Below are positions 30,140-36,169 of a DNA stretch of 64,000 nt, one piece after another. Numbering within the stretch: position 1 is the stretch's first letter; every line of letters starts with the position of its first letter. Under the pieces are notes generated by a model. The model made no database searches. It saw only the letters and a list, made by a program, of their open reading frames with translations, and was not told the origin of the DNA. The stretch comes from Gammaproteobacteria bacterium (GTDB taxonomy: Bacteria; Pseudomonadota; Gammaproteobacteria; Enterobacterales; Neiellaceae): positions 124,001-188,000 of the forward strand of contig JAFOOX010000063.1 in the NCBI GenBank assembly GCA_017425245.1. Direction: 5' to 3'. Position numbers and translations under genes: made by a program.

Positions 30140-32290
30140 TTAACGCAAAGTCAGGCTGTCGAGCTGCAACTCGGCCTCACCCTGGCTACGGAAAAATTGT
30201 ACGGTGGCATCGCCCTCCATCGCCACCAGTGCCTGCTGACGGCGTTCGGCCAGCTCACGCTGACGGCGCTGGGCCGGCGTTTCCGTCAGCGGCAGGCCGA
30301 CGCTGGCGGCCAGCAGCGGCTGCTCGCCCAGCAAGGGCGCCAGTGCCGCGGCCAGCTCATCCAGCCGACGGCTGTCGAGCAGGTGCTGCTGCTCGGCCAT
30401 CACCTGCAGCTTCCAGCCTTTGGCGGTGCGCAGCAGTTCACTGTTGAGCGCCAGCTGCAAGGTCAGGCCATCGACACCGAGCTGGCCCACCCAGTCAAAC
30501 CAGCGCGGCTCAACCTGACCATCCGCGGCGGCCAGTGGCCGGGGAGCCGGCGGCGTAGGGCTGGCGGCCACAGCCGGCTCAGCCACTACGGGGGCGATGG
30601 TTACGGCCAGCGCTTCGGTAGCGGCTGGCTCGGCGCCAAACCACAATCCGGGGTCCGGTTCGCTGACCTCATCCATGGGCGGCAGATCGTCGTCATCCCA
30701 CGGCGGCTCATCGCTGAACGCCGGGTCCTGACGCACAGCCGGCCGCGCCGCCGTAACCGGTTGAGACGGCGACACCACGGCCGGAGCGGGTGCGCTAACC
30801 GCAGCCGGTGCTGGCTGCGGCCGGCTGAGGTTGATGGCCAGCGCCGCAGGCGCTGGCCGCTCAGGCTTTTTTAGCCCGTCCTCGTCACCACCTTGGTGGC
30901 CGCGCAAGGCGGCCAGCCCGCGCAATACCGAGGCCGTATCACTGTTGGTGACCAGAGGCGACTGTGGCGAGGTGGCCACAGGTGTTGCCGACACTGGTAT
31001 TGCTGGCGAAGCAGGGATAGGCGCTACCGGCTGGGCTGGCTCAGGGCGCAGCTCTGGCCGTGGCACGGGCGGCGGTGATGGCATCGCGGCCTGCGTCGGC
31101 TGTGGCCGCCCGGCCAGCACTTCGGCTTCCGCCTCAATGGCCGCCAACTGATCGCTCAGGGCGCTGGGGGCATCTAGCTCCGGCTGCGCTACCGCCGGTC
31201 GGCCAATCCCCCCTTGTGGGCGAAACGCCAGCACCCGCAGTAATGTCATCTCCACGGCAATGCGCGGGTCTGGGGCCAAGGGCAGTTCGCGCCGCCCTTC
31301 CAGAAACAGCCGGTAATAGAGCTGCACCACCTCGGGGGCTACTTGGCTGGCCAGTGCCGGCCATGGCGCCTCGGCCAACAGACCGGGCGCTTTGCCCATA
31401 AACTGGATCATGGCCATGCGATGCATCGCTTCTGCCAGCTGGGTCAGCAGCCGTTCAAATCCGACCGCCTGGGCAGCCAGCTGCTCGACCTGGGCCATCA
31501 CCCCTTCGGCGTCGCCAGCCAGCAACAGACGGACCAGCTGAGCCACCCCCTCGCGGCGGGCAGTACCGAGCATGGCCGTCACCTGGGCCGAGCGCACCTC
31601 GCCCTGACCAAAGGCCACCGCCTGATCGGTCAGGCTCAGGGCATCGCGCAGGCTGCCGCGCGCGGCAGCGGCCAGTTCATCCAGCGCCGGGGCGTCACAG
31701 GCAATGCCCTCGCCCGCCAGCACCCGCGCCAGGTGGCCGCTGATCTCCAGCGGCGTCAGGCTGCGCAGATGAAACTGCAAACAGCGCGACAGCACCGTCA
31801 CCGGCAGTTTTTGAGGATCGGTGGTGGCCAGCAGGAATTTGACGTGGGGCGGCGGCTCCTCCAGCGTTTTCAGCAACGCATTGAAGGAGTGGCGCGACAG
31901 CATGTGTACTTCGTCGATCAGATAGATCTTGTAGCGGCCGCGAGTCGGTCGGTACTGGACATTCTCCAGCAGTTCGCGGGTATCTTCTACTTTGGTGCGC
32001 GAGGCAGCATCAATCTCGATCAGATCAACATGGCGCCCTTCGGCGATCTCGACACAACTGCTGCACTGGCCACAAGGGCTGGGGGTTGGCCCCTGTTCAC
32101 AGTTGAGGCTCTTGGCCAGGGCACGGGCGATGGTGGTCTTGCCCACCCCACGGGTGCCGGAAAAGAGCAGCGCATGGTGAACCCGATCATCACGCAGGGC
32201 GCCGGAGAGGGCTTGGACCACATGGTCCTGACCCACAACCTCAGCGAAGGTGCGTGGACGCCAGCGCCGCGCCAGAGCCAGATAAGCCAT
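30140..32290 (-). CDS. dnaX: DNA polymerase III subunits tau and gamma
   Basis: 716-residue tau. The clamp-loader ATPase has Walker [12 protein letters not shown], a zinc-binding Cys cluster (CGQCSSC), DEVHMLS (Walker B) and a sensor-1 region. A Pro/Ala-rich linker of about 150 residues leads to the C-terminal tau domain that binds alpha and DnaB. At codons 473-475 (CTA AAA AAG) a slippery site with a downstream hairpin predicts a -1 frameshift: the shortened gamma would be 475 shared residues plus Ala, then TGA. The start overlaps the apt stop (TGATG). Confidence 0.96.
30836..30883 (-). promoter_or_regulatory. Programmed -1 ribosomal frameshift signal in dnaX
   Basis: On the coding (minus) strand the heptamer A AAA AAG occupies 30872-30866 in the correct frame. 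An SD-like GAGGA at 30883-30879 precedes it by six bases. Seven bases after it starts a perfect 10-bp hairpin, GGCCAGCGCC (30858-30849) and GGCGCTGGCC (30845-30836), with loop TGC. Slipping back one base gives GCC TGA, so gamma ends one residue after the slip, as in E. coli, where one Glu precedes the stop. Confidence 0.88.
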
Positions 32291-32838
32291 CAGTGCCCCG
32301 CGTAGCGGACGAGCACATGGGGCTCAATGCCGATCTCACGCAGCCGCCCCTCACCCGGCAGATCGGGCAGGCCGACCACAAAAGCCGCGCCGACCACAGT
32401 GCCACCGAGCCGTTGAACCAGCTGGGCGGTGGCCAAGATGGTGCCACCGGTAGCGAGCAGGTCATCCACCAGCAGCACCCGCTCGCCGGGCCGGATGGCG
32501 TCGGTGTGAATCTCCAGGGTGTCGGTGCCGTACTCCAGCGCGTAGCTTTCACGCAGGGTTTCACGCGGCAGCTTGCGCGGCTTGCGCACCGGCACAAAAC
32601 CCGCGCCAAGACGCAGCGCCAGCGGCGCACCGAAGATGAAACCCCGGGCCTCGGCGCCGACCACTTTGGTGACGCCAGCGTTGACGAAAGGAGCAACCAG
32701 CGCGCCGATGGCGCAGGCGAAGGCTTCGCCGTTTTCCATCAGCGAGGTGACATCACGAAAGATGATGCCGGGCTTGGGGTAATCAGGAATGCTCTTGATA
32801 CTGGCCTTGAGCAAGGCGTCGCAGGATAGCGCTGTCAT
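32290..32838 (-). CDS. apt: Adenine phosphoribosyltransferase
   Basis: 182 residues from ATG 32838. Salvages adenine to AMP using PRPP; the PRPP loop is [31 protein letters not shown] and [12 protein letters not shown] are conserved. The frame extends to a GTG at 32868, but the shorter start matches E. coli Apt. Its stop overlaps the dnaX start by one base. Confidence 0.95.
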
Positions 32839-32902
32839 GCCGGTGCTGAGTAGGTAAAACCGGGCCACAGCCTACCACAAAGGTCTGCTTAGCTTAACCG
32901 GC

Positions 32903-33280
32903 TCAGGCAGCGGCGTGACCTGACGCAGGTTGCAAGGCAGCGGCCAGTTCGGCGGCGGCCACCGGCTTGGCCAAGACCGCCGACAGGCCAGCAGCACTGG
33001 CTTCACTGCGCACGGTGGACAGCTGCTCGGTGGTTAGCAGCACCAGCGGGATTAAGCCATAACCAGCGAGCTGACGCAGGTTGCGGCTCAGGGTCAGGCC
33101 ATCCATCAATGGCATACGCTGGTCGAGCACCACGCCGTCAAAGGCGGTATCGCGGGCCAGCACCAGCGCTTTTAGGCCATCTGCGGCTTCCACCACATCA
33201 AAGCCCAGCATCTGCAATTGCACTGCCAGCTCATGGCGAACGCGGCTGTTGTCGTCCACCAGCAGAATGGTTGCGGCCAT
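32903..33280 (-). CDS. Stand-alone CheY-like receiver protein
   Basis: 125 residues made only of a receiver domain: D9/D10, phosphoacceptor D53 (GVVLDQRMP), Thr in LLTTEQ and K105 (LAKPV). No output domain follows. It lies between apt and the hvf-type operon on the same strand. Its kinase is unknown; no histidine kinase adjoins it, and the kinase-like gene at 11374 is far away. Confidence 0.88.
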   Translation of the reverse strand: MAATILLVDDNSRVRHELAVQLQMLGFDVVEAADGLKALVLARDTAFDGVVLDQRMPLMDGLTLSRNLRQLAGYGLIPLVLLTTEQLSTVRSEASAAGLSAVLAKPVAAAELAAALQPASGHAAA

Positions 33281-33385: not shown

Positions 33386-33502
33386 TTAGCGCAGAACTTT
33401 GAGCCAGCCGATGGTTGCTGGCGCAGTCGGGATCAGAAAAACGGTGATGAAACAAAGCAGATACCGGATGTTGAAGGGCTCCTTAAACTCACCTTGGGCC
33501 AT
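33386..33502 (-). CDS. 38-residue single-span membrane peptide after hvfC
   Basis: A short ORF starting MAQGEFKEPFNIRYLLCF and ending GWLKVLR. GAGG lies five bases before its ATG, a good ribosome site. Residues about 13-33 are hydrophobic with one Cys (C17) and a Pro-containing middle (LIPTAPATIGWL), flanked by charged ends, so it should span the inner membrane once. It starts 44 bases after the hvfC stop on the same strand. Many hvf/buf operons carry a DoxX-type membrane gene here; this one has this peptide instead. I recognise no family. Confidence 0.5.
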   Translation of the reverse strand: MAQGEFKEPFNIRYLLCFITVFLIPTAPATIGWLKVLR

Positions 33503-33546
33503 GGCCACCTCGACAAATTGATCTGAATCAAAACTAGACGGGCGTG

Positions 33547-34311
33547 CTAGCCATTGCCAGGGACAGCTGCAACCCCTCCCCCGACCAATCCACGCCGGGC
33601 TAGATCGATAGCGGCGGTCGTTAATCCACTGCCAAGGCTATCCTTCGGCCACTGTGGGTAAACGGCCGCGACCTGCGCCACCCAGTGCGCGAGTGTTTGC
33701 CCCGGCCGTTCTGCGAGCAACTGCAGAGCCAACACCAGCAACGGCGCCAGCGCCATAAAACGCACCTCATCATCGCCATCGCGATAGACCAGCAAACCGG
33801 TGGGCTGTTCCGGCGGTTTCGACGGCTGATGGTCAACACTGATTTGATGGACCGGGTAGCGGTAAAGCAATGGCGCTGCCGCAACGTGAAGATGGAGTGG
33901 CAGCTCAGGAGCACCATCCCAAAGACTGACGGGGCTGGCCGGCCGGGTGGCCACCACCAGCTCCATCCATTCGTAATGCAGCAGTTCGGCGCCAAAGGGC
34001 TTGCCGCCGACAGCATCCCCCCAGCGGCGGGTGGCAAAGGCCAGAAACTCGGCCGGAATATCGAGAAACAGCGGGCTGCGACAGCTGTGTTCGGCCACGA
34101 AGCTGTCAATCAACGGCTGCCAGCCTGCCCCATGGATGCGCCGGCTGACCGGAAAACAGCTATGGATAAAGCTGCAGATGTTGTTGCCGATCAGCTCGCG
34201 GTAGACCCGTAGGCGGCGTTCATCCAGCCCGGCTGGAGCCGGGTTGTCCGGGTGGCGCAAATGGTTGGCCAACGCCAACTGCAGCTGGCTGAGCGAATCT
34301 GGGGGGCTCAT
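33547..34311 (-). CDS. hvfC: DUF2063 peptide-modification partner protein (HvfC/BufC-like)
   Basis: 254 residues from ATG 34311, which has AGGAG five bases upstream and overlaps the hvfB stop (ATGA). The N-terminal part matches DUF2063 (LRVYRELIGNNICSFIHSCF, preceded by a Leu-rich helix). In characterised systems this protein binds the precursor peptide and delivers it to the DUF692/MNIO enzyme. The C-terminal half is the variable domain of the family. The open frame to 34461 is antisense-like sequence within hvfB and is rejected. Confidence 0.85.
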   Translation of the reverse strand: MSPPDSLSQLQLALANHLRHPDNPAPAGLDERRLRVYRELIGNNICSFIHSCFPVSRRIHGAGWQPLIDSFVAEHSCRSPLFLDIPAEFLAFATRRWGDAVGGKPFGAELLHYEWMELVVATRPASPVSLWDGAPELPLHLHVAAAPLLYRYPVHQISVDHQPSKPPEQPTGLLVYRDGDDEVRFMALAPLLVLALQLLAERPGQTLAHWVAQVAAVYPQWPKDSLGSGLTTAAIDLARRGLVGGGVAAVPGNG

Positions 34312-35138
34312 GCCGGCTCCTGCTGCCGTGCGGCCTGCTGACAGTGGCGCACCTGCGCCAGCTCGGCCTGCAGTTCGAGCATGGCCGGAATGTTGAAGTC
34401 TCGCTCCAACAGGGTGGGCCGCAAGCCATGCTCGCTGTAGGTATAGGCCAACAACTGCCACACCGGATCAATCACCGGCGCACCATGGGTATCAATGATA
34501 AAGCCATCGGCCTCGCGGTAATGCCCAGCGACGTGGAGATAAGAGATCGCCTCACTTGGTAAGCCCTGAATAAAAGCCTTGGGATCGTAACCATGGTTGC
34601 TGGCATTGACGTAGACATTGTTAACATCCAGCAGTAACTGGCAGCCAGAGCGGGCGATCACCTGACGGATAAACTCAAGCTCGCTCATCTGCTGGCCCGG
34701 GGCCAGATAGTAGGAGGAGTTCTCCAGCACCAGCGGCGCATCCAGCAGCTCCTGCACCTGCTGGATGCGGCTGACCACGCGGTCAATGGCTGCAGGGGTG
34801 AATGGTATCGGCAACAGATCGTAAAGATGACCGCCGGCCGCGCAGTAACTCAAGTGTTCGGAATAAAGCTGAATGCCATGGCTGCGCATAAAGCTGAGAA
34901 TGGCATGAAGATGGTCCAGGTCCAAAGGATCGGGACCGCCAATAGAGAGCGACAGACCGTGACAGATGAGCCTGTCGCGCTCGGCCACCGCCGCCAGCTG
35001 GCGGCCATTGCGGCCCCCAAGCCCTAACCAGTTCTCCGGCGCGATCTCCCAGAAATCAACGCCAGAGACGGATGCGGCACTTACGCTGGCCATCATGTCG
35101 CGGCGTAAACCCAGACCACAATGGTGGGATGCCAGCAT
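34308..35138 (-). CDS. hvfB: DUF692 multinuclear non-haem iron oxidative enzyme (HvfB/BufB-like)
   Basis: 276 residues. The TIM-barrel DUF692/MNIO family is shown by GLGLRRD, FWEIAPENW, HGLSLSIG (H60), SEHLSY (E94, H95), VLENSSYY (E139), LLLDVNNVYVN with NHGYD (D171, N173, H182), HVAGH (H202, H206), DTHG (D216, H218) and LLERDFNIP (E245); His, Asp, Glu and Asn of such motifs bind the iron cluster. These enzymes oxidise Cys in peptide precursors to copper-binding groups. AAGGAG precedes the ATG by nine bases. A hairpin separates it from hvfA. Confidence 0.92.
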   Translation of the reverse strand: MLASHHCGLGLRRDMMASVSAASVSGVDFWEIAPENWLGLGGRNGRQLAAVAERDRLICHGLSLSIGGPDPLDLDHLHAILSFMRSHGIQLYSEHLSYCAAGGHLYDLLPIPFTPAAIDRVVSRIQQVQELLDAPLVLENSSYYLAPGQQMSELEFIRQVIARSGCQLLLDVNNVYVNASNHGYDPKAFIQGLPSEAISYLHVAGHYREADGFIIDTHGAPVIDPVWQLLAYTYSEHGLRPTLLERDFNIPAMLELQAELAQVRHCQQAARQQEPA

Positions 35139-35159
35139 CGTTCACAACTCCTTAAAGAT

Positions 35160-35184
35160 GTTGGGCGGCGATTGGCCGCCCAAC
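35160..35184 (-). terminator. Intercistronic hairpin between hvfA and hvfB
   Basis: Perfect 10-bp stem with arms at 35160-35169 and 35175-35184 and a 5-base loop, followed on the minus strand by ATCTTTAAGG. The short T stretch suggests partial termination or mRNA protection, which would let hvfA be made in excess of its modifying enzymes. Confidence 0.6.
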
Positions 35185-35207
35185 CATAATGCCCCGGACG
35201 AACGCCG

Positions 35208-35513
35208 TCAGGCCATGCCACCACCACACTTGCCTTCACCGCATTTCCCTTCACCATCCTTCTTCTCGGCACCACATTTGCCTTCACCGCCCTTCTTCTC
35301 AGCGCCACACTTGCCTTCACCGCATTTCCCTTCGCCTTCCTTCTTCTCGCCGCCACATTTACCTTCACCACACTTGCCCTCAGGCGCATCAAGTTGGTAA
35401 CCAGCTGCCAGGTCGGTCATGGCAAAAGGGTTGGCAGAAGCAACCGGCACCATGGTTACGGCGGCGAAAGTGCCAAGAGCAACAGCGAAAGCGGAGGTTT
35501 TGAACTGATTCAT
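35208..35513 (-). CDS. hvfA: Exported precursor peptide with seven EGKCG motifs (HvfA/bufferin-like RiPP)
   Basis: 101 residues. A signal peptide (residues 1-27, ending PVASA) precedes a mature region of about 74 residues. Residues 45-97 hold seven EGKCG motifs, some as direct doublets, spaced by GEKKEG, AEKKGG and AEKKDG; Cys are at 48, 53, 64, 69, 80, 91 and 96, and there are no others. In known HvfA and bufferin peptides such Cys become thio-oxazole or oxazolone-thioamide groups that bind copper. AAGGAT seven bases upstream of the ATG is the ribosome site. The gene lies first in the operon. Confidence 0.92.
   Translation of the reverse strand: MNQFKTSAFAVALGTFAAVTMVPVASANPFAMTDLAAGYQLDAPEGKCGEGKCGGEKKEGEGKCGEGKCGAEKKGGEGKCGAEKKDGEGKCGEGKCGGGMA
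35223..35381 (-). repeat. Tandem coding repeats for EGKCG and EKK linkers
   Basis: Imperfect 15- to 33-base direct repeats encode the seven EGKCG motifs of the precursor peptide. Synonymous differences between copies (for example CGC/GGT-type third-base changes) show that the peptide pattern, not the DNA, is kept. Such repeats may change copy number by slippage. Confidence 0.85.
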
Positions 35514-35604: not shown

Positions 35605-35618
35605 TTGCTCCAGATCAA
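35605..35618. promoter_or_regulatory. FNR-like palindrome upstream of hvfA
   Basis: TTGCT-CCAG-ATCAA differs at one base from the FNR consensus TTGAT-N4-ATCAA. It lies about 92-105 bases before the hvfA start and just upstream of a weak TTGAAA...TCTATT promoter-like pair on the minus strand (35602-35597 and 35577-35572). Functional assignment is speculative. The rest of the 266-bp gap to the divergent dksA-like gene shows nothing else I can name. Confidence 0.3.
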
Positions 35619-35779: not shown

Positions 35780-36169
35780 ATGGCCAACCTCGCCTCGACA
35801 GAACTTGAACAGCTACGCCAGACGCTGGAAATGCAAGCCCAGCAGCTGCGACAACTCCTGCTGAACGAACTCTCGCGGGAACCAACCCTAGCGCCTACGG
35901 CACTGTCGCAATTGGCACAAGCGAGCGATGATAATCTGGTTGAGTTTGCGTTGGACTATTATGCCCAGCGCAGCAATACCACCCTGCGCGAACTGGAGCG
36001 TGTGGATGCCGCCCTGGCCGATATGGAACTTGGGCTCTATGGCGTCTGCAGTGAATGCGAAGAGCCGCTAACCGCCGAGCAATTGCGCCGCGATCCCGCT
36101 TCGCGCCGCTGCCCTAAATGCGAAGCGCGACATAACAAGCCGCGCTCCCGTCACCAACAGATCCATTGA
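35780..36169 (+). CDS. DksA/TraR-type C4 zinc-finger protein
   Basis: 129 residues. An N-terminal coiled-coil region is followed by the zinc finger with C90, C93, C111 and C114 (CSECEEPL, RRCPKCEA). Such proteins bind the RNA polymerase secondary channel and tune transcription with or without ppGpp. It is shorter than E. coli DksA (151), and the acidic tip residues are arranged differently (ASDDNLVEFA), so it is a paralogue rather than housekeeping DksA. Divergent from hvfA. Confidence 0.82.
   Translation: MANLASTELEQLRQTLEMQAQQLRQLLLNELSREPTLAPTALSQLAQASDDNLVEFALDYYAQRSNTTLRELERVDAALADMELGLYGVCSECEEPLTAEQLRRDPASRRCPKCEARHNKPRSRHQQIH

Follow-up and report, generated by a model that had tools for sequence, protein, structure and literature searches.

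A predicted copper-binding RiPP operon and an adjoining gene for a conserved membrane microprotein that is probably linked to cbb3 oxidase

Introduction

Several operons that modify the cysteines of EGKCG motifs have been described. Fontiphorin, encoded by fonABC of Fontimonas thermophila, contains seven 5-thiooxazoles (PMC13097082), and oxazolin, which is made by HvfABC(X) of nontypeable Haemophilus influenzae, contains six modified Cys (PMC13419390). Together with gonophorin, they have the 5-thiooxazole chemistry on the same architecture; the chemistry was formerly described as oxazolone-thioamide and has been reassigned (PMC13097082, PMC13419390). The mmrABC cluster of Microbulbifer (bulbicupramide) consists of three genes, with five to eight EGKCG core cysteines, and the term DoxX does not occur in the text of that report (PMC12538549). 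About 2,000 Buf_EGKCG proteins have been surveyed (PMC12452194). On the side of the cbb3 oxidases, CcoM is a small single-helix subunit of the Pseudomonas stutzeri enzyme, present as chain N in PDB 5DJQ (PMC8267372, PMC10433244).

Here we analyzed one hvfABC locus within a 64-kb stretch of gammaproteobacterial DNA, hereafter the window, together with the small open reading frame, ORF4, that follows hvfC.

Results

The hvfABC trio

On the minus strand, from high to low coordinates, the gene order is hvfA, hvfB, hvfC, ORF4, a response-regulator receiver gene, apt, dnaX and ybaB (Table 1). The gaps between hvfA and hvfB and between hvfC and ORF4 are 69 and 44 nt in length, respectively; hvfB and hvfC overlap by 4 bp (34308-34311).

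Table 1. Features of the hvfABC-ORF4 locus, in window coordinates
Feature	Coordinates	Strand	Description	Support or context
Flank	32290..33280	-	Response-regulator receiver (32903-33280), apt (32290-32868), then dnaX, ybaB	Conserved ORF4-side neighbourhood
ORF4	33386..33502	-	38-aa microprotein, one predicted transmembrane helix, MAQGEFKEPFNIRYLLCFITVFLIPTAPATIGWLKVLR	
FNR/ANR-type palindrome	33518..33531	-	TTGATTCAGATCAA, perfect	Sole perfect match within the 64 kb
hvfC	33547..34311	-	DUF2063 plus RRE-like C-terminal domain, 254 aa, MNIO partner (PME type 1)	Pfam, NCBIfam, 3DEE
hvfB	34308..35138	-	MNIO (DUF692), 276 aa	Pfam, NCBIfam, 3BWW alignment
Stem-loop	35160..35184	-	10-bp perfect stem in the hvfA-hvfB gap	z -1.8 vs shuffles
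hvfA	35208..35513	-	101-aa precursor, Sec-type signal, NPFAMTDLAAGYQ leader, seven EGKCG	NF050137 above cut-off

The precursor contains exactly seven EGKCG motifs; its Sec-type signal peptide, with a VASA/NPF site, was read from the sequence. It scored 51.2 bits with the NCBIfam model KCGExKCG_twice (NF050137), above the cut-off of 19.5. With the equivalog model for Haemophilus HvfA (NF050188), it reached 39 bits, below the cut-off of 95, and the window hvfA is therefore not the Haemophilus ortholog. The hvfB product matches PF05114 (4.9e-100) and passes the HvfB family model NF003818 (398.2 bits, cut-off 360). It aligns with 3BWW (2e-65), and the metal-ligand motifs EIAPENW, HGLSLS, HLS, EN.SYY, LDVNN, H.AGH, DTHG and ERDFN, with their His, Asp, Glu and Asn residues, are all retained. 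The hvfC product matches PF09836 (2.6e-20) and NGO1945_C (5.3e-23), passes the HvfC family model NF050145 (232 bits, cut-off 142) and aligns with 3DEE (1.2e-11). The hvfB product is the single MNIO in the genome.

A sequence-only reading of this DNA had described a signal-peptide precursor with seven EGKCG motifs, a DUF692/MNIO enzyme with intact motifs and a DUF2063 protein overlapping it by 4 bp. All of these descriptions held: the first agrees with the ORF and the NF050137 match, the second with PF05114, NF003818 and the 3BWW alignment, and the third with the coordinates, PF09836 and NF050145. The HMM search that it had proposed as a check matched the DUF692, DUF2063 and precursor-repeat models alike.

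Of the named relatives, a Corallincola sp. MAG (L032) is the closest; its MNIO is 87% identical. Homologous hvf loci were found in 80 further genome records, and these nearest relatives were combined with the window into a set of 81 loci. Precursors were detected in 73 of the 81, with 1 to 25 GKCG motifs, so that seven motifs are unremarkable. BLAST against plasmid records returned one match, of 65 bp within hvfB. Judged by its family assignments, the trio is a complete and ordinary predicted RiPP operon of the EGKCG/oxazolin type (HvfABC, 'captophorin', fontiphorin).

The hvfA-hvfB gap and the region upstream of hvfA

The stem-loop of Table 1 has a counterpart in L032 (2545-2606), where the hairpin is also strong and its sequence is unlike that of the window. 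Among 71 relatives, the gap folds below -10 kcal/mol in 42, and several of these hairpins are terminator-like. This is only suggestive of a possible attenuator that would yield an excess of precursor over enzyme.

About 100 nt upstream of hvfA lies an FNR-like site with one mismatch (35605-35618); it has two mismatches in L032. We do not claim FNR control of hvfA, since a box with at most one mismatch was found in only 2 of 73 relatives. Further upstream, and divergent from hvfA, a gene at 35780-36169 encodes a DksA/TraR-like C4 zinc-finger protein, assigned through weak Pfam and NCBIfam scores; the gene is kept in L032.

ORF4 encodes a conserved membrane microprotein

ORF4 was compared with its counterpart in the sister MAG, L032. 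The dN and dS values are 0.12 and 0.74, respectively, and the low dN/dS (~0.16) indicated that ORF4 is coding; its ribosome-binding site, GAGGTGG, is also kept. Profile searches returned homologs that are mostly 35-45 aa in size, with one predicted transmembrane helix and the pattern FKEPFN..YFLGF..VL.IPTLPA.L.W. The order-wide sample consisted of 395 genomes, of which the window's own is 89% complete and the others reach 90% or more; ORF4 is present in 145 of them, from 33 of the 119 genera. In a class-wide sample it is present in 4 of 370 genomes, three of which belong to the window's own order.

ORF4 has no match in Pfam, NCBIfam or PDB. In the papers searched, the microprotein is not described, a weak sign that it is new.

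A divergent 36-aa homolog (MATYNDFNWKY...) lies between an FKBP-type gene and dapB-carAB in loci L174-L179; a perfect FNR box precedes its start by ~17 nt.

An FNR/CRP-type operator precedes many ORF4 genes

The 150 nt before the ORF4 start were searched for operators with at most one mismatch. FNR boxes were found at 41 of 120 ORF4 loci, 34 of them perfect, compared to 93 of 5,311 control windows. CRP boxes were found at 16 further loci, all of one Shewanella-type family (f6), compared to 18 of the 5,311 controls. For either box, the numbers are 57/120 loci and 111/5311 control windows, where related loci are not independent of each other.

Class-II activation by FNR needs a transcription start ~41 nt downstream of the box centre. 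In the window the palindrome is centred ~21 nt before the ORF4 ATG, too close for class-II activation of ORF4, and the box may serve for repression in this lineage. At the apt-type loci, the box is located 41-108 nt before the ORF4 start; activation from the box is possible in lineages with this spacing.

ORF4 occurs in genomes that encode cbb3 oxidase

The gene ccoN is present in all 145 ORF4 genomes and in 85 of the 250 genomes without ORF4 (395-genome sample). The genomes are phylogenetically non-independent, and shared ancestry inflates this table; therefore, contrasts within genera weigh more. In one genus (g19), three genomes (G045, G446 and G461) possess both ORF4 and ccoN, whereas G021 and G430 lack both. 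In the latter two, DUF454-apt-dnaX comes straight after hvfC; the block is otherwise intact, and nothing but ORF4 with its operator is missing. In a second genus (g9), three genomes (L254, L255 and L256, corresponding to G613, G659 and G722) have neither ccoN nor ORF4. There, hvfABC is present without apt-dnaX downstream, and the gene after hvfC is of the DoxX type.

G731 and G748, which are congeners of an ORF4 carrier, keep ccoN and have no ORF4. These two and the other ccoN genomes without ORF4 (85 altogether) indicated that ORF4 is not essential to cbb3. When 80 of these 85 genomes were searched for a diverged ORF4 with a wider profile, four weak matches inside long frames were obtained, none of them convincing. 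No genetic linkage was found between ORF4 and the cco genes.

Two other respiratory partners were considered in the 14 contrast genomes. All 14 carry the gene for the Rieske subunit of bc1, and the distribution of NapA does not follow that of ORF4, so a tie to cytochrome bc1 or to periplasmic nitrate reductase is unsupported in these genomes.

Taken together, these correlations indicated that ORF4 is probably a cbb3-linked membrane microprotein. A role in cbb3 oxidase, as a subunit or as a stability or assembly factor, is the leading candidate for its function, and we give it a chance not far short of even. A doubtful but serious contender is that ORF4 is a membrane microprotein of general low-oxygen function, for example a stress or energy regulator similar in size to CydX/YohP, whose co-occurrence with cbb3 would reflect shared retention in facultatively aerobic marine gammaproteobacteria. 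The FNR/CRP-type operators, the distance of ORF4 from the cco genes and the 85 ccoN-positive genomes without it would all suit such a protein; the complete nesting of ORF4 within ccoN-positive genomes, and its precise absence in ccoN-less congeners that retain the Rieske/bc1 gene, argue for the cbb3 role instead.

ORF4 is a neighbour of the hvf pathway

The sequence-only reading had presented ORF4 as an unusual fourth gene of the operon. At first sight the arrangement favors a true Hvf accessory, a small membrane protein that would stand in for DoxX/HvfX in, e.g. peptide export, anchoring or copper transfer: wherever the sampled genomes contain ORF4 together with an HvfB-level MNIO (55 of 55), ORF4 comes directly after hvfC in the same orientation, at a distance of 13-202 nt where this was measured, and the window locus is without DoxX. 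However, 90 of the 145 ORF4 genomes have no HvfB-level MNIO, and 48 genomes encode HvfB without ORF4, including G021 and G430, where ORF4 alone is missing. Among the 120 ORF4 loci, 34 of the hvf-free ones are located before apt-dnaX and 15 before carAB. Of the 68 hvf-linked ORF4 loci, 62 run on into apt, and most of the others into dnaX or a truncated flank. Because apt or dnaX lies downstream of nearly all hvf-linked loci, inherited synteny explains the linkage between hvf and ORF4. Most simply, hvfABC-ORF4-(DUF454 or response regulator)-apt-dnaX-ybaB was inherited as a single block that contains hvfABC and ORF4 as two distinct units. ORF4 is thus a neighbour of the pathway and not a component of it, the receiver-apt-dnaX-ybaB flank is outside the RiPP system, and we regard an accessory function in Hvf as unlikely.

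The receiver encoded at 32903-33280 is a stand-alone protein, and relatives of it are encoded beside ORF4 at some two dozen loci, upstream in some and downstream in others.

The sequence-only reading had also pointed out that the usual DoxX gene is missing from the next position. No DoxX gene is present at the positions following hvfC in the window locus, so the absence is real. As an oddity it did not stand: DoxX is encoded within 3.2 kb downstream of hvfB in 6 of the 81 loci, one of them ~2.9 kb away (six of the 81 loci have short downstream sequence, and DoxX identity was confirmed by Pfam on two examples). Loci of this subclade thus normally lack DoxX, which is accessory to hvf operons, not defining. 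Two DoxX genes are present elsewhere in the window's genome. ORF4 as a DoxX replacement was rejected, as ORF4 loci exist without hvf and DoxX is rare in the relatives anyway.

Discussion

The best explanation of the locus, which we hold with good confidence, is two adjoining units: an hvfABC operon for a predicted copper-binding RiPP and an independent ORF4 gene. By analogy with close relatives, HvfC (RRE/DUF2063) would bind the HvfA leader and deliver HvfA to HvfB, an iron MNIO that would take four hydrogens off each EGKCG cysteine to give 5-thiooxazoles. The modified HvfA would be exported through its Sec signal and would bind copper in the envelope, thereby lowering copper stress. We infer both the 5-thiooxazole chemistry and the copper role of the window operon from these relatives; family models and the literature likewise lend support to the earlier proposal of a Hvf-type RiPP with oxidation of the EGKCG cysteines and export. 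ORF4 is a gene apart, behind an FNR/CRP-type operator of its own, and it is found here since this lineage has hvfABC on the upstream side of the ORF4-apt-dnaX neighbourhood.

The trio was earlier labelled as Hvf/bufferin type. The Hvf/oxazolin part of this label stands, and the strict bufferin part does not. A bufferin operon (Buf1/Buf2) would have the enzyme superfamily and the partner type in common with the window operon; against it, the precursor matches no Pfam family, DUF2282 included, and carries EGKCG repeats, and the BufB equivalog scores 267.8 bits, below its cut-off of 310, whereas the HvfB model passes. We consider a bufferin identity very improbable. That ORF4 is a chance ORF without a product is hardly conceivable, since its mere 38 codons and its lack of any family model are set against homologs with a conserved sequence pattern in 33 genera, the dN/dS of ~0.16 and the kept GAGGTGG site.

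As to novelty, the trio is an added seven-site member of a copper-peptide family that is already characterised. ORF4 is the more important half, as it represents a family of conserved membrane microproteins that matched no entry in the Pfam, NCBIfam and PDB collections searched. The analysis also sets right a tempting misreading, in which a new Hvf gene stood in place of DoxX. Our fuller proposal is tentative, with odds rather below even: ORF4 may be an undescribed cbb3 subunit or stability or assembly factor, distributed across much of the Alteromonadales/Vibrio/Shewanella-type gammaproteobacteria, encoded away from cco, under the control of an FNR/CRP-type operator and located in several lineages beside a copper-buffering RiPP operon. 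Its nesting within cbb3-oxidase genomes and its absence from congeners without the oxidase make ORF4 a concrete and easily tested candidate for a cbb3 component so far overlooked in well-studied genera.

Like CcoM, ORF4 falls in the range of 36-38 aa, has one transmembrane helix (predicted for ORF4) and occurs in a cbb3 context. Different from CcoM, it belongs to other clades, and the ORF4 profile gave no match to 5DJQ chain N, which was in the searched library; ORF4 as CcoM itself was rejected for want of detectable sequence similarity.

The trio has close counterparts among the described EGKCG systems. Like oxazolin HvfABC(X), it has a signal peptide, EGKCG repeats, and HvfB and HvfC above the curated cut-offs; different from oxazolin, it has seven Cys instead of six, no gene for the DoxX-like HvfX, and an HvfA that scores below the equivalog cut-off. 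It shares with bulbicupramide mmrABC the form of a three-gene EGKCG cluster of marine gammaproteobacteria with a core of 5-8 Cys, and differs from it in genus and flanks. With fontiphorin it shares the EGKCG-repeat precursor, the seven core Cys and an MNIO with a DUF2063/PME1 partner; the spacer sequences of the two precursors differ.
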